Shown piece after piece: positions 1-25,495 of a stretch of DNA of 27,562 bases. Within the stretch, counting starts at the first letter, position 1, and every line of letters starts with the position of its first letter. The notes beneath the pieces were generated by a model. It had not been told where the DNA came from. It saw only the letters and a list, made by a program, of their open reading frames with translations, and ran no database searches. Position numbers and translations under genes: made by a program. The DNA is from a virus: positions 1-27,562 of the IMG/VR virus record IMGVR_UViG_3300035724_000021; one strand, given 5' to 3'.

Positions 1-2
1 CG

Positions 3-266
3 CGCGCTGCCTACATCAAGCGCCGGTGGGCCGAGAAGGCGGAACGCGCCACGATCGTGAAGGAGATCCAGAGCGCCGGCCCGCCGCACGACAAGTGCAC
101 CTACCAGATCGTCTTCGCCGCGACCAAGGGCCTCCCCGGCGGTCCCGACAAGGACAAGCCGACGGGCGATGACGGCAAGACCTATTCGCTGCAGCCGCCG
201 AAGCCTGGCGCGTCGCCGGCAGCCTCGCAGACGAACCAGGGTGCATCGGCAGCCGCCGCGGAGTAA
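3..266 (+). CDS. Partial unknown protein, C-terminal end only
   Basis: An open frame enters from the left edge and ends at the TAA at 264-266, so the true start lies outside the window; the GTG at 57 is only an internal possibility. The visible 87 residues begin with a charged helical stretch (YIKRRWAEKAERATIVKEI), pass through a short region with one cysteine, and end in a low-complexity tail rich in Ala, Pro, Gly and Gln. Codon use is strongly GC-rich (GCC, GGC, AAG, GAC), unlike the lipoprotein and small genes that follow, which suggests a highly expressed gene. I do not recognise a family. It could be a structural or DNA-binding protein, but nothing visible decides this. Confidence 0.55.
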   Translation, partial: RAAYIKRRWAEKAERATIVKEIQSAGPPHDKCTYQIVFAATKGLPGGPDKDKPTGDDGKTYSLQPPKPGASPAASQTNQGASAAAAE

Positions 267-270
267 CGAA

Positions 271-284
271 TCACTGGCCAGTGA
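271..284. promoter_or_regulatory. 14-nt perfect palindrome just after the first stop codon
   Basis: TCACTGGCCAGTGA is a perfect inverted repeat without a spacer, starting 5 nt after the TAA at 264-266. A loopless dyad suits a dimeric DNA-binding protein better than an RNA hairpin. It directly precedes the long helix that opens the structured region at 285, so it may be an operator for that transcript or simply its 5' edge. Function is inferred only. Confidence 0.3.
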
Positions 285-735
285 GCTGAAGTACGGGCCG
301 CTATGGGTTGGAGGCTAGCGCCTCCTTCCCTGCTCTCGTACGTTGGTCGGAAACAAACCATCGGCAAGGCCAGCGACCCGTACTCAGCGACGAGTCCAAC
401 GTTGTCAAGGTCCGACGTCATGAACAGGATGCACGCCCCGGTACGCAGCCTGCAAGCATCGCCGAGGGCTCCTTTGATGGAGGTAGGCGAGGAAGCGGTA
501 GGCTGTGGGCATAAGTCCTAGGCAAACCCGGGGTATTGGAGGACGGCGGTTTGCGTGTGCTCCCTAGGTTGACCATGCTACGACCGTTCCCGAGGCTTTG
601 GGGGTTGTGCCTGACGAACAGATGACGCTGCGTGAAACAACCTCCACTGTTTTAGTAGGGACGGCTTCGGAGGGTGTGCCGTAAACACCTTCCACTCTGA
701 CGTGATGTGCCGCTATCGAGCTAGCGACATGTTAC
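271..735 (+). ncRNA. Candidate large structured RNA in a 500-nt gene-free region
   Basis: Between the stop at 266 and the ATG at 767 there is no ORF with a ribosome site and protein-like composition, yet long complementary segments follow one another. Helices read by eye: 285-302 with 372-388 (about 16 pairs, one bulge and one mismatch); inside it 305-315 with 320-330 (GGAGGC/GCCTCC, then GGG/CCC across a TT/TT loop); 459-463 with 486-490 capping 469-472/479-482; 517-528 with 548-568 (CCTAGG and CAAACC arms); 599-608 with 637-646 (10 pairs, one G-T); 669-677 with 685-693 (9 pairs); and 705-715 with 722-730. Order and nesting are mutually compatible. There is no U-tract terminator and no obvious promoter, so both ends are uncertain. 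It does not resemble tRNA, tmRNA, RNase P RNA or a group I intron core as I know them. Large ornate phage RNAs such as GOLLD and ROOL are known precedents, but I cannot show homology. Confidence 0.5.
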
Positions 736-766
736 TCCTCAAAACTTGGCCCGGTAGCTGTAACTT

Positions 767-1324
767 ATGGACTCGCCCCAGGCGCTAACACTTGCTGAGT
801 TAGTCGGCGAAGGAGCGGTTTCGCAGCTGCCGGGCTCTTCTTTTTTCGAGTTCTACCAAAAGGTAAAGGGGCGACCACCAGTCGAAACCCTACCGTACGA
901 GATTATAGGCTTGGACCCTGGAGAGACCACAGGCGTCAGTGTTTGGACCAGGACAGGCTCGGAATTCCAGGTGCAGTCATTCCAGATCAACACCTCCATC
1001 ATCGAATGGGGCGTTGACAAGTTTAACATCCTACTCCAACGTTCTCCAGGCAAGTGTGTAGTCATAGAGAACTACCGCGTGTATAGTTGGAAGGCCAAGA
1101 TACATAGCTGGCAGGAGCTCCTCACTCCCCGGTTGATCGGGGTGGCTGAGACCTTCTGCCGTCTGGGTTCGATCCCGATCGTCAAGCAGATGGCACAACA
1201 AGGGAAGTCGTTCGCAACTGACGACAAGCTAGAACAATGGGGCCTCTACCTTAAGGGGAGACCTCATGCCATGGATGCTACACGTCACGTCTGTCAGCTA
1301 CTACTCTTCGGAGAATGGAAGTAA
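767..1324 (+). CDS. RuvC-like Holliday junction resolvase (RNase H fold)
   Basis: A 185-residue protein with the acidic residues of a RuvC-type nuclease in order: D50 in IIGLDPGETTG, E101 in VVIENY and D170 in the terminal HAMDATRH motif, with H167 beside it. Enzymes of this fold cut four-way DNA junctions with two metal ions; in phages they resolve replication or recombination intermediates before packaging. The start is fixed because an in-frame TAA lies at 761-763 and no other early start exists, although no clear Shine-Dalgarno site is visible. The stop TAA overlaps the ATG of the next gene (TAATG at 1322-1326), so the two are probably translationally coupled. The family is fairly certain; the exact substrate is inferred from family knowledge. 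Confidence 0.8.
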   Translation: MDSPQALTLAELVGEGAVSQLPGSSFFEFYQKVKGRPPVETLPYEIIGLDPGETTGVSVWTRTGSEFQVQSFQINTSIIEWGVDKFNILLQRSPGKCVVIENYRVYSWKAKIHSWQELLTPRLIGVAETFCRLGSIPIVKQMAQQGKSFATDDKLEQWGLYLKGRPHAMDATRHVCQLLLFGEWK

Positions 1325-2067
1325 TGATGCAAAGGAGCAAGTCAGCAATCGTAGCTTTGCTCCTAGCCACAACGGCTTGCGGAGGATCACCCTTGGCTCC
1401 GCTTCAGCCGGGAAAGGTCAGGATCTCCGACCCTATGCAGTACCTGGCTCAATCGCGAGCACCCGACGGTAACGTAGCAACTCCCCTACACGACTACGAC
1501 CCGATAGCTTATCGCAGGTTCGACTTCGGGCACTCTCAAGCGTCAGACAGCTTCCTGACTGGCCCGACTTCGGCGATCACAACCTGGAGCTACTCTCCCT
1601 GGAATGAGTTCACCGACGCCAACGGTGATGGTGGGGAGACCTATGAGCTCCAGGGCGATAAGGTGTTGATCACCAGCACGAAGCATATGGGCATCCCTAC
1701 GACAGCCATCTCATGGGTCGCCCTACGTACCGACACCGTAGATTGCTCGCAGGGTTGGACGACCTACTCTCCACTCGAGCGAGGGTGTAGAGTAGCAGTC
1801 ACATACCCGAACATCGGACCAGTAGACACGATCGTCAGTGAGCATCTCAACCCAGTTGAACAGTTTGTTGAACGCATATTCCTGGGACGAGGCTGGGGCA
1901 GACTAGCATGGCAGACGTTCCGAGCCTCGGGACAGCCAGTCAAGGACCGTTGCCCCGACTTCGGATGGAGCACCTATGCGAGCTGGGCTCTAACCGATTG
2001 TCGGTATGCCCTCAATGTCGAGCAGGCATCAGGCAATCTAACAGGAAAGAATCTCTGGCACCCCTAG
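1324..2067 (+). CDS. Predicted phage-encoded lipoprotein, unknown function
   Basis: I chose the ATG at 1324 because it overlaps the previous stop; an ATG at 1315 or 1327 is possible. The product starts MMQRSKSAIVALLLATTAC: two positive residues, a short hydrophobic core and a cysteine after TTA, which is the layout of a signal peptidase II lipobox. The mature protein of about 228 residues has aromatic-rich segments and two pairs of cysteines (DCS...RGC and RCP...DCR) that could form disulfides outside the membrane. This places it on the outer face of the cytoplasmic membrane, or in the periplasm if the host is Gram-negative. Phage lipoproteins of this kind are sometimes superinfection-exclusion factors, but that is only a possibility. 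I do not recognise the mature domain. Confidence 0.6.
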   Translation: MMQRSKSAIVALLLATTACGGSPLAPLQPGKVRISDPMQYLAQSRAPDGNVATPLHDYDPIAYRRFDFGHSQASDSFLTGPTSAITTWSYSPWNEFTDANGDGGETYELQGDKVLITSTKHMGIPTTAISWVALRTDTVDCSQGWTTYSPLERGCRVAVTYPNIGPVDTIVSEHLNPVEQFVERIFLGRGWGRLAWQTFRASGQPVKDRCPDFGWSTYASWALTDCRYALNVEQASGNLTGKNLWHP

Positions 2068-2090
2068 TAAGCGAGCGGGATAACCTAACC

Positions 2091-2660
2091 ATGCAGTCCG
2101 ATAATGAGAGAGCTTGGGAACGGAGTAAGCGAGAGGGCGTCAACCCGAAAGACCTGATCGGGGTCACCAAAGTCCCCTTCCAAGTCGTTCCTTGGCCGGC
2201 TGTCGCTTACATGTCGTTCTGCATGTATGATGGAGGAGTCAAGTACGCTCCCGTCAACTGGCGTGACATCGCCGTCAAGCTAAGCATCTACGCCGAAGCT
2301 GGGCTAGGCCACTTCGCTTCGATCCTCGACGGCAAGGACTATGATCCCGTCACTGCATTACACCATGCGGGCTATGCTATGTCGTGCGGAGCGATCATCC
2401 TTGATGCCTTGATCACCGACAGCCTCATCGACGACCGCTTTGCAGTGCGTCGCCAACGTCCAGGGGCTCTGGCATCACGCGACATCGTCGGCTACCCAGA
2501 AGGCAGGCCAGGTGCCATCAAGGAGATGATCGCCAAGCCTCTCCGTCTCGATCCTATCGGTTCTATACCGGTACCTCCGCCTCAACCGTCAGCAGATCCC
2601 GAACCGGTACCTGCACCTGAGAGTCTGGTCCCAGACGGAGGTCGGGAGGAGCCGTTCTAA
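2091..2660 (+). CDS. DUF5664 / dATP-dGTP diphosphohydrolase N-terminal-like protein
   Basis: The frame is open from 1908, but the part before 2091 overlaps the lipoprotein gene and reads like shadow sequence, so the ATG at 2091 (189 residues) is preferred. The core carries the family pattern as I recall it: NPKDLIG near residues 17-23, then Lys-Val-Pro-Phe, GGVKYAPVNWRD, a helix with YAEAGLGHF, the acidic DGKDYDP, and ALHHAGYAMSCGAII. This all-helical domain occurs in many phages and is annotated as the N-terminal domain of dATP/dGTP diphosphohydrolases, so a role in tuning the phage dNTP pool is plausible. The C-terminal 50 residues are proline-rich and end in acidic GGREEPF. The catalytic role here is unproven; the family call is moderately sure. 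Confidence 0.6.
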   Translation: MQSDNERAWERSKREGVNPKDLIGVTKVPFQVVPWPAVAYMSFCMYDGGVKYAPVNWRDIAVKLSIYAEAGLGHFASILDGKDYDPVTALHHAGYAMSCGAIILDALITDSLIDDRFAVRRQRPGALASRDIVGYPEGRPGAIKEMIAKPLRLDPIGSIPVPPPQPSADPEPVPAPESLVPDGGREEPF

Positions 2661-2701
2661 CCTGCTCAACTAGCCAAAAACCAACCTGAGGAGTAACCAC
2701 T

Positions 2702-3022
2702 ATGAAGATCAGAGCCCTCAAATATGGGACTCTAGAGGTAGTCGGAGCCGTCGAAATCCAGGACATGCAGATGTCCAGCGCCCATGCCTTCAAGCTTGAG
2801 GACAAGCCGGTCCCAGAGATGGTAGCTTGTGGCAAGACTCCCTACTGGATCGACGACGAGAACAATCCTATTGTCGAGTACGACGGAGGCACCTGGGATA
2901 TGCGCTCCACTCGGATGGAGTTCTTCCTGGAGGTCCCGGAGGAGTTCATCGGCCGACTGCCTGGCTGGATCCGCATGCCTCCTAAACCGATCATGGTCCT
3001 CGGCGACTTTACAAACTGCTGA
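2702..3022 (+). CDS. Hypothetical protein, 106 aa
   Basis: A good Shine-Dalgarno site (GAGGAG about 9 nt upstream) supports the ATG at 2702. The protein starts with a beta-rich segment (MKIRALKYGTLEVVGAVEI), has mixed charge and Trp/Pro-rich patches toward the C-terminus, and has no membrane segment or recognisable catalytic motif. It is followed 11 nt later by another small gene, so it sits in the same early-region operon. I do not recognise the family. Confidence 0.6.
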   Translation: MKIRALKYGTLEVVGAVEIQDMQMSSAHAFKLEDKPVPEMVACGKTPYWIDDENNPIVEYDGGTWDMRSTRMEFFLEVPEEFIGRLPGWIRMPPKPIMVLGDFTNC

Positions 3023-4543: not shown

Positions 4544-4570
4544 AGCCGGGTTCAGCCCGGCTATATTTTT
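4544..4570 (+). terminator. Rho-independent terminator closing the first operon
   Basis: AGCCGGG at 4544-4550 pairs perfectly with CCCGGCT at 4556-4562 around a 5-nt loop, followed by ATATTTTT at 4563-4570. This is the classic hairpin plus U-tract. It lies 23 nt after the membrane peptide stop and just before a new promoter. Confidence 0.88.
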
Positions 4571-4604: not shown

Positions 4605-4634
4605 TTGAGGTCCCATAGGAACTTATTATATAAT
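4605..4634 (+). promoter_or_regulatory. Sigma70-type promoter with shared spacer motif
   Basis: TTGAGG (4605-4610) and a perfect TATAAT (4629-4634) are separated by 18 nt, giving a predicted start near 4641 and a leader of about 50 nt ending in AGAGGAG 8 nt before the ATG at 4691. The spacer TCCCATAGGAACTTATTA matches the one before the TATAAT at 11512 at 13 of 18 positions. Confidence 0.75.
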
Positions 4635-8197: not shown

Positions 8198-8345
8198 GTT
8201 CCTTGATTCGGAGCTTGACAATCCCCAGAACACTACAGACCTAGAGTTCGAGCGGACGAAACATCTAAGGCAGTACGAGATATGCAGTCGAATTCTAACC
8301 AAGACAGTCGAGAAGATCAAGCAGCTCGTTTCATCAGGGGAATGA
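8106..8345 (+). CDS. Small helical protein, start uncertain
   Basis: The frame ending at the TGA at 8343-8345 encodes a clearly helical segment (YTLEELKEIKDLVLGQVEF, then ERTKHLRQYEICSRIL and KTVEKIKQLV), typical of small phage helical-bundle or coiled-coil proteins. The coding signal begins near 8142, still inside the preceding gene. Only a TTG at 8106 (CAGGG upstream) or a GTG at 8181 (AAGGA upstream) can serve as start; the TTG keeps the whole helical part. A +1 frameshift from the preceding gene is an alternative. The stop forms an ATGA overlap with the Fic gene. Confidence 0.45.
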   Translation: MRRGRRKSSDSNDYTLEELKEIKDLVLGQVEFLDSELDNPQNTTDLEFERTKHLRQYEICSRILTKTVEKIKQLVSSGE

Positions 8346-8842
8346 TGCAGTCGGAGGCCCTTGAGGACTTCATCCGTGAAAGTAATATCATAGAGGGCAT
8401 TATCAAGCCGAAGGACATCCAAGAGACGGCCGCTTACATGTCTCTCTTAGGGCTGAAGAGAATGACGTTGCACATTCTCAACAGGTTCCAAGAGATAATC
8501 GCTCCAGACAAGCCTCTCAGACGTCTAAAGGGCATGGACGTCTATGTCGGCAACCATATTCCTCCGCCAGGAGGATCAAACATCGTCGAGATGTACGAAG
8601 AGATCATCCTGATGGCCAACCAGGATGAAGATCCTTGGAAGGTCCATCTCCTCTTCGAGGATCTACATCCGTACATGGACGGCAACGGTCGTACTGGTCG
8701 AGCCTTGTGGATGTGGCAGATGCACAAGCAGGGCCGCGATCCGTTCCAGCGGTCATTCCTCCACCAGTTCTACTACGACACCCTCTCACGCACCAGGGCA
8801 GGAATAGCCTATGCAAAGCCAGCTGACCCCGGCCAAGGTTAA
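8342..8842 (+). CDS. Fic-domain protein with N-terminal inhibitory motif
   Basis: I chose the ATG at 8342 because it overlaps the preceding stop as ATGA; the frame is open upstream to an ATG at 8282. The 166-residue product contains the Fic active site HPYMDGNGRTGR at 109-120 (catalytic His109, phosphate-binding Gly-Asn-Gly, Arg120) and the substrate-aligning flap GMDVYVGNHIPPPG at 64-77. Fic enzymes usually transfer AMP from ATP onto Ser, Thr or Tyr of target proteins. Residues 14-19, SNIIEG, match the inhibitory motif [S/T]xxxE[G/N], whose Glu blocks productive ATP binding, so the enzyme is probably autoinhibited in cis. The target is unknown; a host protein or a partner in phage takeover is possible. 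No separate antitoxin is visible. Confidence 0.82.
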   Translation: MMQSEALEDFIRESNIIEGIIKPKDIQETAAYMSLLGLKRMTLHILNRFQEIIAPDKPLRRLKGMDVYVGNHIPPPGGSNIVEMYEEIILMANQDEDPWKVHLLFEDLHPYMDGNGRTGRALWMWQMHKQGRDPFQRSFLHQFYYDTLSRTRAGIAYAKPADPGQG

Positions 8843-15086: not shown

Positions 15087-15839
15087 ATGAAGACCTTGGC
15101 GTATGTCCTCCTCTCAGGGGGCATTGACTCGACCACCTGCGTCGCGGAGGCTGTTGCAGCCGTAGGGCGGCGCAATGTCCGATGTGTGTCGATCGACTAC
15201 GGCCAGCGACACATTCGCGAGCTGGAGTCGGCACGAGCGGTGGCAGGGTACTATGCCCGGCCTCACACCATCCTACCAGTCTCGTTCCCGCGCTCTATGC
15301 TGACGGACCCGTCCATCGAGGTTCCGAACATCTCATACGCGGAGATCCAGGGGGTGTCCCCTACCTACGTTCCGTTTCGGAACGGGCTATTCCTGGCGAC
15401 GTTGGCATCACATATCGCAGGTATCCACTTCGACCCAACGAAGATGACTCTCCCGATGGAGAGTACGATCCCAGGCGACAACGTACCCAACCCCGAATAC
15501 AACGCCGACGTTACGTTGTACTTCGGCGCGCACGCGGAGGACGCGCAGAACTGGGCGTACCCAGACTGCACACCCGAGTTCGTCGGAGCGATGGCCAACG
15601 CGCTGTACGTCGGCACATACCACAAGCTCCGGTTGGTGACCCCCTTCGTACACTCGACGAAGTCCCAAATCATCCAGCGGGGTAAACAGCTCGGCGCACC
15701 GTATTACCTGACCTGGTCCTGCTACAAGGGCGGTGAGGTACACTGCGGTACCTGTGCAACCTGTCTCGCACGAAGGGACGCCTTTATCGAGGCAGGCGTC
15801 GAAGACCCGACCATCTACATGGCCGAAGCTGCCGAGTAA
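15087..15839 (+). CDS. queC: 7-cyano-7-deazaguanine (preQ0) synthase QueC
   Basis: A 250-residue protein with all hallmarks of QueC: the ATP pyrophosphatase PP-loop SGGIDST at 10-16, SIDYGQRH near 35-42, the conserved YVPFRNG near 92-98, and the zinc site Cys212, Cys220, Cys223, Cys226 (SCYKGGEVHCGTCATC). QueC turns 7-carboxy-7-deazaguanine into preQ0 in two ATP-dependent steps. Length is close to the bacterial enzyme, and no fused amidotransferase domain (as in the phage 9g type) is visible. GGGAGG 9 nt upstream supports the start. It is the last step of the pathway encoded here by FolE, QueD, QueE and QueC. Confidence 0.93.
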   Translation: MKTLAYVLLSGGIDSTTCVAEAVAAVGRRNVRCVSIDYGQRHIRELESARAVAGYYARPHTILPVSFPRSMLTDPSIEVPNISYAEIQGVSPTYVPFRNGLFLATLASHIAGIHFDPTKMTLPMESTIPGDNVPNPEYNADVTLYFGAHAEDAQNWAYPDCTPEFVGAMANALYVGTYHKLRLVTPFVHSTKSQIIQRGKQLGAPYYLTWSCYKGGEVHCGTCATCLARRDAFIEAGVEDPTIYMAEAAE

Positions 15840-15888
15840 CTACACTACACTACGTATCCAACACCCGAGGGGAGGTTCAGGGCCGTAT

Positions 15889-16473
15889 ATGACGTTCAAG
15901 ATCGACCGTTGCATCGAGATCGACGCAGGACACCGTGTGCCGACCCACGGGTCGAAGTGCGCAAATCCTCACGGGCATCGGTATAAGATCTTCGCCGAGT
16001 GTCAGTCGGCCAGCCTCACCCGAGAGCATCAGGGTGGAGCATACATCCATCTTCCTGGAGGCGATAAGGACGAGCAGCGGGATATGGTCATGGACTTCGG
16101 CTTCCTGAAGGAAGTCATGATGCACCATATAGACCGGATGTGTGATCATGGCATGATCCTCTGGTGCGACGACCCTTGGGCGGCTATGATGCTGGACCCT
16201 TACCAGAACAACCCTATCGGAGTCCTACAAAGTTTGACCCACGTGAGGGATGAGACCCTACCATTCCTCTTCGACGTCGTCGAGAAAGGCCACGATCCTC
16301 TTGCTCCACGCAAGCTGTTGATTGTGCCGTTCATTCCGACGGCAGAGCGCCTCGCAGAATTCTGGTACAACCTCATGAAGGAGGATGTCCATGTTCGGTC
16401 GAATGGGGTCGCCTATCTCAATCGCGTTAGCGTCTGGGAAACGCCGAACTGCTGCGCGTCCTACCCAGCATAA
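15889..16473 (+). CDS. queD: 6-carboxytetrahydropterin synthase QueD
   Basis: The frame is open from 15733, but homology-like sequence starts at the ATG at 15889 (GGGGAGG and CAGGG upstream), giving 194 residues. The first part contains IDAGHRVPTHGSKCANPHGHRY with His15, catalytic-type Cys24, and zinc ligands His28 and His30. Further on are VMDFGFLKEVM, CDHGMIL (Asp-His of the catalytic relay), and near the C-terminus VSVWETPNC carrying the conserved Glu. QueD converts dihydroneopterin triphosphate to 6-carboxytetrahydropterin. The protein is longer than the roughly 120-residue bacterial QueD because of segments inserted around residues 38-62 and 85-140; long phage forms of this kind occur. 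Confidence 0.88.
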   Translation: MTFKIDRCIEIDAGHRVPTHGSKCANPHGHRYKIFAECQSASLTREHQGGAYIHLPGGDKDEQRDMVMDFGFLKEVMMHHIDRMCDHGMILWCDDPWAAMMLDPYQNNPIGVLQSLTHVRDETLPFLFDVVEKGHDPLAPRKLLIVPFIPTAERLAEFWYNLMKEDVHVRSNGVAYLNRVSVWETPNCCASYPA

Positions 16474-16493
16474 GGAATACGTGGAGCCGGTCA

Positions 16494-16829
16494 ATGGTTG
16501 CGAAGTTCTCTGTCGGGGAGAGGGTGATTGGCCTACAGCACTCCCGAAGTCTGGCCCTGTTCGACATCCAGGAGATCTACCTGAATGCTGAGGGGAGTGC
16601 CGTCTACAAAGCCGTAAGGTGCTCGAACAACTCTCCTGAGTTCGTCGAGGAGGTTAACCTCAGCAAGTGCAACGGCAAGTACGTTGAATACGGAGGAAGT
16701 GTCTGGGACATTGAGTCAGTCCACCGGCCTGTCTTAACGGCTCCTCCGGGTGAAGTCTCTGACGACACGAAGCTCGCCCTTAGCGACCTGGTCGAGTACC
16801 TGAATCGCAAGCACATAAGCAGAGGGTAA
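16494..16829 (+). CDS. Hypothetical protein between QueD and QueE
   Basis: The ATG at 16494 with GGAG 7 nt upstream gives 111 residues. The N-terminal two thirds look beta-rich (VAKFSVGERVIGL, LFDIQEIYL, SVWDIESVHRP), like a small barrel, and resemble in style the 14820 protein, which also has a GSVW strand. The C-terminus is helical (KLALSDLVEYLNRKHI). It sits 4 nt before the QueE start, within the deazaguanine operon. Family not recognised; a linked role is only inferred from its position. Confidence 0.5.
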   Translation: MVAKFSVGERVIGLQHSRSLALFDIQEIYLNAEGSAVYKAVRCSNNSPEFVEEVNLSKCNGKYVEYGGSVWDIESVHRPVLTAPPGEVSDDTKLALSDLVEYLNRKHISRG

Positions 16830-16833
16830 CACT

Positions 16834-17589
16834 GTGGCTAACACCGCAAAGAACATCCCGGTCATGGAGATCTTTGGACCCACCATCCAGGGTGAGGGAG
16901 CTCTAACAGGTCAGGTCTCCTACTTCATCAGGACCGGTGGCTGTGCCTATCGGTGCACCTGGTGCGACCAGATGGAAGCGGTTCTGCCGAAGGAAATCAA
17001 GAAGAACGCCACCTACCTGTCTGAGTCGCAGATCGTCGAGAAGGTCATGACTCTGCTACCTCCAGACGGTGTGCCAAACGGGTCGGACGTCTGGATGACG
17101 CTGAGCGGAGGCGACCCGCTCATGTGGAACCTCGAGTACGTTGTCGGCTCCCTCCAGATAGCAGGAATGAAGGTAGCTGTTGAGACTCAGGGGACTCTGA
17201 ACCCTATGTGGCTCCAGTACGTAGACCTCATCACCTGCTCACCAAAGCCTCCGTCCTCTGGGATGAGCCACAAGATCAACCATAACACTATCGAAAGCTA
17301 CCACCGCTTGTTCGGCAAAGACAGGGTTGTCCTGAAGGTCGTCGTCTTCGATGAGAAGGACCTCGACTTCGCCCAGGCAATCCACGAGAAGTGGCCTACG
17401 ACACCTTTCTACCTGAGCGTAGGCACTCCGACAGAGCAAGAGTGCCCAGACGACGACAAGATGAAACAAGCAATCCTCAAGAGGTACAGATGGCTCGCGG
17501 ACGAGTTTCTCAAAAGACCAGCACTGTGGGGAGCAACAATGGGTCCGCAGATGCACACCTTTCTGTACGCCCGCGAGAAGGGAAGGTAG
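16834..17589 (+). CDS. queE: 7-carboxy-7-deazaguanine synthase QueE (radical SAM)
   Basis: Starts at a GTG at 16834 with AGAGGG about 8 nt upstream. The 251-residue protein has PTIQGEG near 16-22, the radical SAM cluster Cys37-x3-Cys41-x2-Cys44 (GGCAYRCTWCD) and LSGGDPLMW near 90-98, which fits the SAM-binding GGE-like motif. ITCSPKPP and the TPFYLSVGTP strand match QueE. The enzyme rearranges 6-carboxytetrahydropterin to 7-carboxy-7-deazaguanine using a [4Fe-4S] cluster and S-adenosylmethionine. It needs a reduced electron donor, presumably from the host. Confidence 0.92.
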   Translation: MANTAKNIPVMEIFGPTIQGEGALTGQVSYFIRTGGCAYRCTWCDQMEAVLPKEIKKNATYLSESQIVEKVMTLLPPDGVPNGSDVWMTLSGGDPLMWNLEYVVGSLQIAGMKVAVETQGTLNPMWLQYVDLITCSPKPPSSGMSHKINHNTIESYHRLFGKDRVVLKVVVFDEKDLDFAQAIHEKWPTTPFYLSVGTPTEQECPDDDKMKQAILKRYRWLADEFLKRPALWGATMGPQMHTFLYAREKGR

Positions 17590-17594
17590 CGGCC

Positions 17595-18266
17595 GTGAAT
17601 GAAGCTACATCTCCCGGATACGAGTACCGTCGCCCTTCTCAGTCTCCCATCAGGGAGATGATCGAGAAGAAGCTCCCTCCCGAAGGACAACGGGATAGGG
17701 ATGCAGCACACTCGATACGTGCCGCTCTCGAGCAGCTCGGGATGGACTGTGACCCAGGAAATCCGTCTATCGCCAATACGCCGGAACGATTCATCAAGTA
17801 CCTCAAGGAATTCTTCCAGCCGTTCGATGCAATCGAGCTCCTCGGAGAAGGCTTCGATGCGGTACACGACAACACGTCGATCAGCAGCATCGTCGCCCAG
17901 GCGCATATTCCGTTCACGGCGGTATGTGAGCATCACCTCCTCCCGTTTCAGGGAGAGGCTTTCGTTGGTTACATACCTAACCAGCGCGTCATCGGATTGT
18001 CCAAGATGGCACGTCTTGTTCATGCTGTCGGACACGAGCGTCCGGGTCTCCAGGAAGCGATGGGCGAGAAGATCGCCGACCTCCTTTATCAGGGGATCGA
18101 CGCCAAGGGAGTAATGGTCGTTCTCCAGGCTAAACACGGCTGCATGTCATGTAGAGGGGTTCACACGCCTGAGGTCGTCACTGTCACCTCCTGCGTTCGA
18201 GGGCTCTTCCGCGACGTCGTAGCTGCTCGTGAAGAATTCCTCTTCCTCACAGGTTTCCGTCGTTGA
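17595..18266 (+). CDS. folE: GTP cyclohydrolase I (FolE)
   Basis: The frame is open far upstream into QueE, but GGAAGG 8 nt before the GTG at 17595 marks the likely start, giving 223 residues. Core motifs: NTPERFIKYLKEFF, AVCEHHLLPFQGEAFVGYIP, IGLSKMARLV, and KHGCMSCRGVHTP. Cys111, His114 and Cys183 match the zinc ligands Cys110, His113 and Cys181 of the E. coli enzyme. FolE opens GTP to 7,8-dihydroneopterin triphosphate, the first step toward preQ0. With QueD, QueE and QueC it makes the phage pathway complete from GTP. Confidence 0.93.
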   Translation: MNEATSPGYEYRRPSQSPIREMIEKKLPPEGQRDRDAAHSIRAALEQLGMDCDPGNPSIANTPERFIKYLKEFFQPFDAIELLGEGFDAVHDNTSISSIVAQAHIPFTAVCEHHLLPFQGEAFVGYIPNQRVIGLSKMARLVHAVGHERPGLQEAMGEKIADLLYQGIDAKGVMVVLQAKHGCMSCRGVHTPEVVTVTSCVRGLFRDVVAAREEFLFLTGFRR

Positions 18267-19743: not shown

Positions 19744-20715
19744 ATGGCATACCAGCTGCCAGTAGCCGAGATCGTGTTAGACTCAGCCCATCCTATGGGC
19801 GACGAGTACCGCACGACGACTGTCCGAGGCAACATCCACAAGTTCGTCCTAGCCGAGCGCAACCGTCACAGGATGTTCTCGCTCTCCGACCGGTCGAGTC
19901 GAGCAATCCCGACCAAGCGTCTCATCGACGAGATCCTAGGTGGAACAGGTTTGGCGATGCCTGTTGAGTTCCGTCGCAACATTCCAGGCATGGCTGGCGG
20001 CGAACCCTTTACCGGTGAAGAGCTTCTACTAGCCCAGCAGAGATTTGAGGACGACGCTAGGGCTGCATGTGTAGGGGCCCGAACTGCAATGGAGGCGAAC
20101 GAGGCGAAGGAGACAGTTAACCGCCGCCTCGATCCGTACTCTTGGACCTATACGGTGATGACCGCCACTCGAGACTGTTGGCTGAACTTCGCTGGTCTCC
20201 GGCTCGACAAGTTTGCCCAGCCCGAGATCCGCGTGTTCGCCGAGTCCTTCTGGCGCGCCTGGAACGAATCGACCCCCAAGCTTCTCAAACCCGGCCAATG
20301 GCATACCCCGTTCGTCGACGGCGAAGACTGGATAAGCATCGAAGAGATGGCCTCCAGACCTGGAGAGGGCTACATGCCCGAACACGATACTTTGAATAAG
20401 GCGATCAAGCTGTCGGTGGGCCGGTGTGCACATACCTCCTATGTCGATTTTGAGACTGGGAACAGGATGACAGTTGAGAAGGCAATCGGCCTGTATGACA
20501 AGCTGATCACCTTTCGCCCGCTCCATGCCTCGCCCTCTGAACACCAATGCACTCCGGACGAGCTGGCAAATCCGATCATCACCTACCGAGCAGAGCCTAT
20601 GTGGATGCACCCCAAGCTCCATGGGAACCTGCCGGGATGGATTCAGCACCGGAAGCAGCTGCCTGGTGAACGTGTTGCTCCACTACCCGAGGGCTACGTC
20701 TATCGTGCGCATTAG
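19744..20715 (+). CDS. thyX: FAD-dependent thymidylate synthase ThyX
   Basis: GGGAG 7 nt before the ATG at 19744 sets the start; the open frame upstream is not needed. The 323-residue protein carries the ThyX signature RHRX7S as R41-H42-R43 followed by Ser51 (RHRMFSLSDRS), preceded by FVLAERN as usual. WTYTVMTATRDCWLNFAGLRL and AQPEIRVFAESF fit the C-terminal FAD- and dUMP-binding part (Q-E-I-R). ThyX methylates dUMP to dTMP with methylenetetrahydrofolate and NADPH. It is longer than many bacterial ThyX proteins (about 220-250 residues), mainly at the C-terminus. It pairs with the ribonucleotide reductase downstream in dNTP supply. Confidence 0.88.
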   Translation: MAYQLPVAEIVLDSAHPMGDEYRTTTVRGNIHKFVLAERNRHRMFSLSDRSSRAIPTKRLIDEILGGTGLAMPVEFRRNIPGMAGGEPFTGEELLLAQQRFEDDARAACVGARTAMEANEAKETVNRRLDPYSWTYTVMTATRDCWLNFAGLRLDKFAQPEIRVFAESFWRAWNESTPKLLKPGQWHTPFVDGEDWISIEEMASRPGEGYMPEHDTLNKAIKLSVGRCAHTSYVDFETGNRMTVEKAIGLYDKLITFRPLHASPSEHQCTPDELANPIITYRAEPMWMHPKLHGNLPGWIQHRKQLPGERVAPLPEGYVYRAH

Positions 20716-24647: not shown

Positions 24648-25495
24648 TGGCTTTGTTTGCACCTATTGGTCCTGCTCGCCTCCTGAGGAAGATTCGTGAG
24701 CTACATGGCGACAGGATGTTAGGGAAGTACCACTTGGTGCTTGCCCATGATATCGTCGCCAACCCGGATGAGTGGAGAAACTGCCGCACACTCCCTCCAG
24801 ACTCGACTGTCATCATCGACAATTCGATCATCGAGCTCGGAGCTCCCGTCGATGTGGATACGATGGTAGAAGCCTATGGGATTCTTGGCCCTGACTACCA
24901 GTGTATCATCGTACTGCCGGATAAGTTCGACGATCCGGTTGTTACCCTAGAGCAGTCGGCTGACTACCTCGAGAAGTTGAAGTCCAGGCCGGAGCTCGGC
25001 GGTGTCGAGTACATGTACGTCGTCCAGGGCGATAGGTTGTCGGACTTCTCAGAGTCGTTTCTCTGGTCCAGCCTGGATCACATCGTTGATCGGGGAGCTC
25101 GATGGATCTCAGTACCTCGGCGAGTATGTGACAAGTTCGGCACAAGGATGGTAGGGCTCTATCCTCTGTTGAACTACAGGCTCAGAAGGCCGATAATCGA
25201 CATTCATCTGTTGGGGTTCAGCGAGAACGTCCTCGACGATGCCTGGTGTACAGCCTGTCCAGGAGTTACGGGGATTGATTCGGCAGTACCTGTTCGACTC
25301 GGCCAAGCAGGTCGCTCGATCGACTTACTACACAAAGGAGATCAAGCAGGGCCAAGAGGGACCTTCTGGGAGGACCCCCATGGCCACCTGAACCTCATGG
25401 TCGGCGAGAACCTCCTAGCTGTCAGAGTCTGGTTCGAAGCTGCACATAAGAACCTTCCCAGATATATCCCCGAAATCAAGGAGGAGTGGCTGTAA
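24647..25495 (+). CDS. dpdA: DpdA-like DNA-guanine transglycosylase
   Basis: A 282-residue protein with the layout of phage DpdA enzymes, relatives of tRNA-guanine transglycosylase: YHLVLAHDIVANPDEW near 28-43, VIIDNSIIELGAPV at 55-68 (Asp58), CIIVLPDKFDD near 86-96, MYVVQGDR near 123-130, RWISVPRRV at 152-160, and IDIHLLGFSEN at 184-194 followed by GIDSAVPVR at 209-217 (Asp211). The two aspartates are in the places expected for catalysis. DpdA exchanges guanine in DNA for a 7-deazaguanine such as preQ0. The other pathway genes are 6-9 kb upstream. The stop is directly followed by the polymerase ATG. Family call is from remembered motifs, not a search. Confidence 0.75.
   Translation: MALFAPIGPARLLRKIRELHGDRMLGKYHLVLAHDIVANPDEWRNCRTLPPDSTVIIDNSIIELGAPVDVDTMVEAYGILGPDYQCIIVLPDKFDDPVVTLEQSADYLEKLKSRPELGGVEYMYVVQGDRLSDFSESFLWSSLDHIVDRGARWISVPRRVCDKFGTRMVGLYPLLNYRLRRPIIDIHLLGFSENVLDDAWCTACPGVTGIDSAVPVRLGQAGRSIDLLHKGDQAGPRGTFWEDPHGHLNLMVGENLLAVRVWFEAAHKNLPRYIPEIKEEWL

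Follow-up and report, generated by a model that had tools for sequence, protein, structure and literature searches.

A long, apparently non-coding stretch before a RuvC-like phage gene, possibly a 3' untranslated region

The 500 nucleotides that separate a small upstream gene from a RuvC-like gene in a phage genome form a genuine, long, apparently non-coding stretch that is probably terminated at its downstream end. We lean toward reading these bases as a long 3' untranslated region that closes a phage transcription unit, considering the absence of a coding signal, the match to a promoter upstream, a stem and U-run unique in the contig, and the terminators found at the same junction in relatives. 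A new ornate RNA is possible, but we judge an untranslated region of the ordinary long kind to be more likely.

A long gap without coding signal

The window, which is the whole 27,562-base virus record IMGVR_UViG_3300035724_000021, matches pieces of an 80,218-base IMG/VR contig (IMGVR_UViG_3300049448_000340) at 100% over bases 1-20,870 and from 20,725 to its end, with window base 1 corresponding to contig base 20,276. The earlier note on this DNA had pointed to a long interval without genes in an otherwise compact phage genome, which our codon scores, family searches and gap comparison bear out (Table 1). We trained a sliding codon model on large genes of the window, 13 of 14 of which scored 0.10 to 0.25 (the fourteenth was entered in the wrong frame). 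Between 226 and 721, scores stayed at or below 0.08 in every frame; in the RuvC frame, the score turned positive from about 766. The earlier note had also regarded a conserved protein frame as incompatible with its reading, and our check of 267-766 found neither a coding signal nor, in six-frame translations, any Pfam or PHROG match at E up to 1. The longest stop-free run within the stretch spans 249 of its 500 nt. Among 13 gaps checked in the parent contig, it is the longest that is not open, the next measuring 282 bases. Two longer gaps (620 and 549 bases) each have one frame that stays open over 618 and 543 bases, respectively, and are therefore probably missed genes. These gaps were taken from a crude gene caller, which placed a small ORF inside the stretch; an ORF at 303-521 was rejected on a codon score of 0.016 and a sub-threshold Pfam match to Trimer_CC (E 0.12). 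A limited literature search returned no title that we recognized as describing 267-766.

Table 1. Features around the non-coding stretch, in window coordinates
Feature	Position	Strand	Details and basis
Upstream gene end	3..266	+	ORF, beginning in full before the window; small protein with Ala-rich tail
Non-coding stretch	267..766	+	500 nt; codon score, six-frame family search, no long open frame
Possible domain closed by helix 260-267/731-738	260..738	+	8-pair closing helix; complementarity, predicted fold of 256-848
Best local domain	285..388	+	Helix 285-302/372-388 with inner hairpin 305-330; fold of 286-390
Helix	285-302/372-388		16 pairs; complementarity
Helix	305-315/320-330		9 pairs; complementarity
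Hairpin	459-490		9 pairs; complementarity
Helix	517-528/548-568		12 pairs, 9-nt bulge; complementarity
Helix	599-608/637-646		10 pairs; complementarity
Helix	669-677/685-693		9 pairs; complementarity
Helix	705-715/722-730		8 pairs; complementarity
Terminator-like hairpin	748..846	+	Stem 748-761/823-836, 14 pairs (11 Watson-Crick); U-run 841-846
RuvC-like gene	767..1324	+	tblastn to phage RuvC / RNase H-like proteins; PHROGs 1981 and 1770

Elsewhere in the window, we noted by eye ORFs at 15087-18266 that form a possible 7-deazaguanine precursor cassette and whose products resemble QueC, QueD, QueE and FolE. An ORF at 8282-8842 carries HPYMDGNGRTGR, read by eye as a putative Fic-like motif, and the protein encoded at 1908-2660 has a dATP/dGTP diphosphohydrolase N-terminal domain (PF18909). 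We rejected a replication origin in the stretch, where repeats are at chance level, the AT-rich core is missing (the top 30 bases are 57% AT) and no clear skew switch occurs.

Terminator-like hairpin, promoter-like sites and the junction in other phages

The most unusual element that we observed, the hairpin at 748-846, sits just downstream of the interval 271-735 to which the earlier note had assigned a structured RNA. Its stem is followed by CUUCUUUUUU. It is the only stem with at least 11 Watson-Crick pairs and a T-rich tail on either strand of the contig pieces, in which one further stem with such a tail has 9 Watson-Crick pairs. Ten shuffles of the + strand produced no comparable stem with a U-run, a post hoc statistic designed after the stem had been seen and with shuffles scored on the + strand alone. 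As an intrinsic terminator, the element has the GC-rich stem and the U-rich run but not the short apical loop, 61 nt of bases able to fold lying between its arms, and a standard terminator scan of 1-3000 (loop 3-8) reported none. A compact terminator was seen at 4544-4562, where AGCCGGGTTCAGCCCGGCT is followed by ATATTTTTGC directly before a promoter-like site at 4605.

ATG767, at which the RuvC-like gene was called to start, falls in the apical part of the hairpin, and the U-run also codes for FF of the RuvC-like protein. Like several other called starts, ATG767 lacks a clear ribosome-binding site, and similarity of the protein to its relative in Brevundimonas phage MaInes is poor before about residue 26. 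The true start may be another site inside the hairpin.

A promoter scan of the contig gave 13 matches, 6 of which lie on the + strand and combine TATAAT with a spacer of 18 bases, at contig 375, 3394, 19906, 24880, 31763 and 44587; those at 24880, 31763 and 44587 correspond to window 4605, 11488 and 24312. The recurring element has an A-rich upstream part, TTGNNN (TAGATT in one), the 18-base spacer and TATAAT. The site at contig 19906 (TTGCGT-18-TATAAT) lies at window -369, directly before the upstream gene, and scores 9/12; a standard promoter scan, which needs 4/6 in the first hexamer, omits it. Within 267-766 we detected no promoter-like site on either strand, the nearest being a weak minus-strand match at contig 21204.

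These observations suggest a model in which transcription would probably start at the contig 19906 site, ~370 bases before the window, and cover the upstream gene and then ~480 non-coding bases that would fold as ordinary local hairpins. Transcription would mostly halt at the terminator-like hairpin, leaving a stable untranslated tail on the upstream-gene transcript, and transcripts reading through would express the RuvC-like gene, so that the hairpin would set the ratio of the two genes. We infer the start, the stop, the read-through and a tail without further specific function from sequence. Bacterial small RNAs derived from 3' untranslated regions consist of an untranslated mRNA 3' end closed by an intrinsic terminator. 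The stretch would share this form, but it is much longer.

Searches by tblastn with the RuvC-like protein identified relatives in 10 phage records, and we read the junction before the gene in five of these. A short terminator-like hairpin precedes the gene in four of the five (MaInes, StAshley, Youna2 and BSP7), in which the same junction spans only 65-110 nt; therefore, either the window phage gained ~400 nt or the relatives lost them. The gene order in MaInes is a large protein, a small protein, a 110-base gap and the RuvC-like gene. The large protein is 34% identical to one upstream of our stretch, and the small one has weak similarity to the product of the upstream gene at 3..266 (pair E 2e-6). 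Within the MaInes gap lies a strong hairpin with a T-rich run behind it, in a stretch that folds with z -4.30. In Brevundimonas phage StAshley, the gap is 94 bases, with a terminator part identical to that of MaInes and a differing part before it. Weizmannia phage Youna2 and Bacillus phage BSP7 have gaps of 68 and 65 bases, respectively, each with a short hairpin, a T-run and, ahead of the gene, a ribosome-binding site; the RuvC-like gene of Youna2 is unannotated and its start is our own reading, and the translated small genes upstream in both phages are not established as homologs of the window's small gene. Consistent with the window, all four phages have a GC-rich stem and then a T-run at the same junction. 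Unlike the window phage, in which ~480 nt precede the stem, 61 nt separate its arms and the called start lies inside, these phages have a compact hairpin with the gene starting behind it after a good ribosome-binding site.

Several of these features argue against a 3' end. Usual terminators have their arms much closer together, and the standard terminator scan reports none here. The called gene start, which has no clear ribosome-binding site, sits within the hairpin, whereas the gene starts after the terminator in the four relatives. In addition, the genes of Gordonia phage DumpTruck overlap, with zero gap before the RuvC-like gene, the RuvC-like domain of another locus (L014) forms the end of a longer ORF, the contig 19906 site matches at only 9/12, and the stem statistic is post hoc. 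The L014 ORF (3287-4489, 400 aa) belongs to a low-GC phage; the RuvC-like match is its C-terminal part, and its N-terminus resembles, by eye, a sigma factor. This resemblance may hint at a role in transcription.

Folding of the stretch against chance

The earlier note had argued that so much retained non-coding DNA with the pairing seen in 271-735 is unlikely to be filler. Compared with dinucleotide shuffles, stability was above chance, with z -2.62 for 271-735 (2/100 shuffles as good), z -2.13 for its minus strand (1/100) and z -2.73 for 256-848 (0/100). This excess was gone against the phage's own DNA: among 66 same-phage windows of 593 nt, a z as low as the target's -2.82 occurred in 8 and an MFE as low in 2. 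Since the mean z of these windows is -1.38, z-scores against shuffles mislead in this phage. Folding the stretch as DNA was rejected as an explanation (z -1.2, 10/100 shuffles as good).

With 274 windows of 200 nt, those starting at 201 to 701 ranged from -2.28 to +0.40, and none was among the 20 lowest. The share of 100-nt windows below z -2 was 0.25 in the stretch (n=20) versus 0.10 outside (n=1,064), and control blocks had a mean z as low in 13/53 and a minimum as low in 20/53 cases. The ensemble diversity of the stretch was matched or undercut by 12/60 shuffles and 9/45 control windows. We counted 10 stems with at least eight Watson-Crick pairs against a control mean of 5.5, a number reached by 2/45 control windows and 1/20 shuffles, which is a mild excess over controls. 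A specially evolved RNA shape is possible on these folding predictions, which do not confirm that the helices go beyond chance.

The seven helices that the earlier note had listed as compatible can all be drawn without conflict on paper, but the helix at 517-568 occurs in neither predicted fold. The MFE structures of 271-735 and 256-848 each hold five of the seven; 517-568 and 599-646 are missing from the former, and 517-568 and 705-730 from the latter. Helix 517-568 had 0.1 expected pairs in both folds, and 510-590 folded alone gave z +0.85 (163/200 shuffles as good). Local domains picked by eye gave z -3.93 for 286-390 (0/200 shuffles as good), -3.23 for 739-848, -2.82 for 445-515 and -2.78 for 700-740, with weaker values for 590-650 (-1.86) and 655-700 (-0.98). 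No comparative support was found for the 260..738 domain. A loop E motif had been suggested, as a speculation, at 464-465/483-485; the letters GA and GTA are present, but three further unpaired G at 466-468 in the predicted fold break the usual motif.

Relatives of the stretch and competing explanations

Searches of IMG/VR viral_contigs with the RuvC-like protein, the ribonucleotide reductase, the helicase and the upstream protein returned the same three contigs at 100% identity, and an alignment query added one locus at 38%. Over the first 5,321 bases of the window, all three match it without a difference, and one of them differs at 1 base in 20,870. We found identical copies and no diverged copy of the stretch in viral_contigs. 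In genome_contigs, where 160 stretches matched a pattern, there was no protein relative, and phage and plasmid DNA searches returned nothing or short weak pieces at chance level. One locus (L146) shares 27/28 bases with 662-689 in a short hairpin between two unrelated ORFs, which we treated as chance.

A covariance-model scan against Rfam, which the earlier note had proposed, was run on the window and the contig pieces and gave zero matches at gathering score. The covariance models of group I and group II introns, riboswitches and other Rfam families were likewise without a match, and at E up to 10 the region 200-900 yielded one weak match, to the MS2 hairpin (14.5 bits; gathering score 40). 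PMC12286853 describes ROOL and GOLLD as RNAs that phages and prophages encode, frequently in the vicinity of tRNA islands. Like these RNAs, the stretch is long and non-coding, lies in a phage and could form many helices. It differs in having no covariance-model match (in 200-900 at E up to 10) and in the absence of tRNA genes from the window and four contig pieces. We found no link to GOLLD and ROOL, which the earlier note had named as precedents.

A dedicated new large structured RNA of ~480-590 nt, closed by helix 260-267/731-738 and ended by the terminator hairpin, would either be processed out of the upstream mRNA or be transcribed separately, and would act as RNA. We consider this unlikely. 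In its favor, the stretch is the longest non-open gap of the 13 checked in a compact contig, reaches z -2.7 against shuffles with good local domains, has more long stems than most controls (2/45 reach the count) and has a terminator-like end. Weighing against it, stability is not above that of the phage's own windows (8/66 as low), the ensemble is no better defined than in controls, named helix 517-568 is absent from the folds, internal repeats are at chance level, and we found no Rfam match, no promoter-like site of its own and no diverged relatives. In its most specific form, a new large phage RNA class of ~580 nt, encoded between the small protein with the Ala-rich tail and the RuvC-like protein, would have a closing helix and the terminator as its last domain, replacing the short terminator of relatives; this we regard as rather doubtful.

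The internal repeats, GGCTTYGGRGGKTGTGCC at 594 and 663 and GTMGGCGARGRAGCGGT at 483 and 803, were rejected as duplicated RNA modules, since equal self-matches arose in 20/200 shuffles and 5/29 control windows. A module pattern scan hit at least 120 stretches; among the matches listed, two different copies occurred only in stretches of the phage itself (L052, L138), and L027 matched one site on both strands. A second scan hit 17 stretches, of which 3 with two matches were from the same phage and 14 looked like chance. Two further scans, whose pattern missed the second hairpin copy by one base, gave 3 stretches, all from the phage itself, and 1 Rheinheimera locus, respectively. Contig 240-263 (L012) is complementary to window 399-422 at 22/24 positions (E 0.001); we treated this antisense pairing as chance, one of 44 other 595-nt stretches of the window having an equal match (w26436) and two a stronger one.

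It is improbable, in our view, that the stretch is the remnant of a decayed gene or a recent DNA insert with no RNA function and with hairpins that arose by chance. Such an origin would suit the junction of only 65-110 nt in the four relatives and structure statistics near control level, but the six frames hold no trace of a protein family and no coding bias, and a useless insert would be expected to be lost from a compact phage on general grounds. An attenuator leader for the RuvC-like gene, in which pairing further upstream, translation or a protein would decide whether the hairpin at 748-846 forms, is highly improbable. ATG767 sits in the hairpin, and 247-256 is complementary to 823-832 at 9/10 positions and could compete with the stem; a single 10-nt complementarity easily arises by chance, and no known riboswitch or leader family matched.

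Should the stretch prove to be no more than a long 3' untranslated region, it would belong to ordinary phage gene control. If diverged relatives were to show covariation, it would be an addition to the few large ornate phage RNAs.
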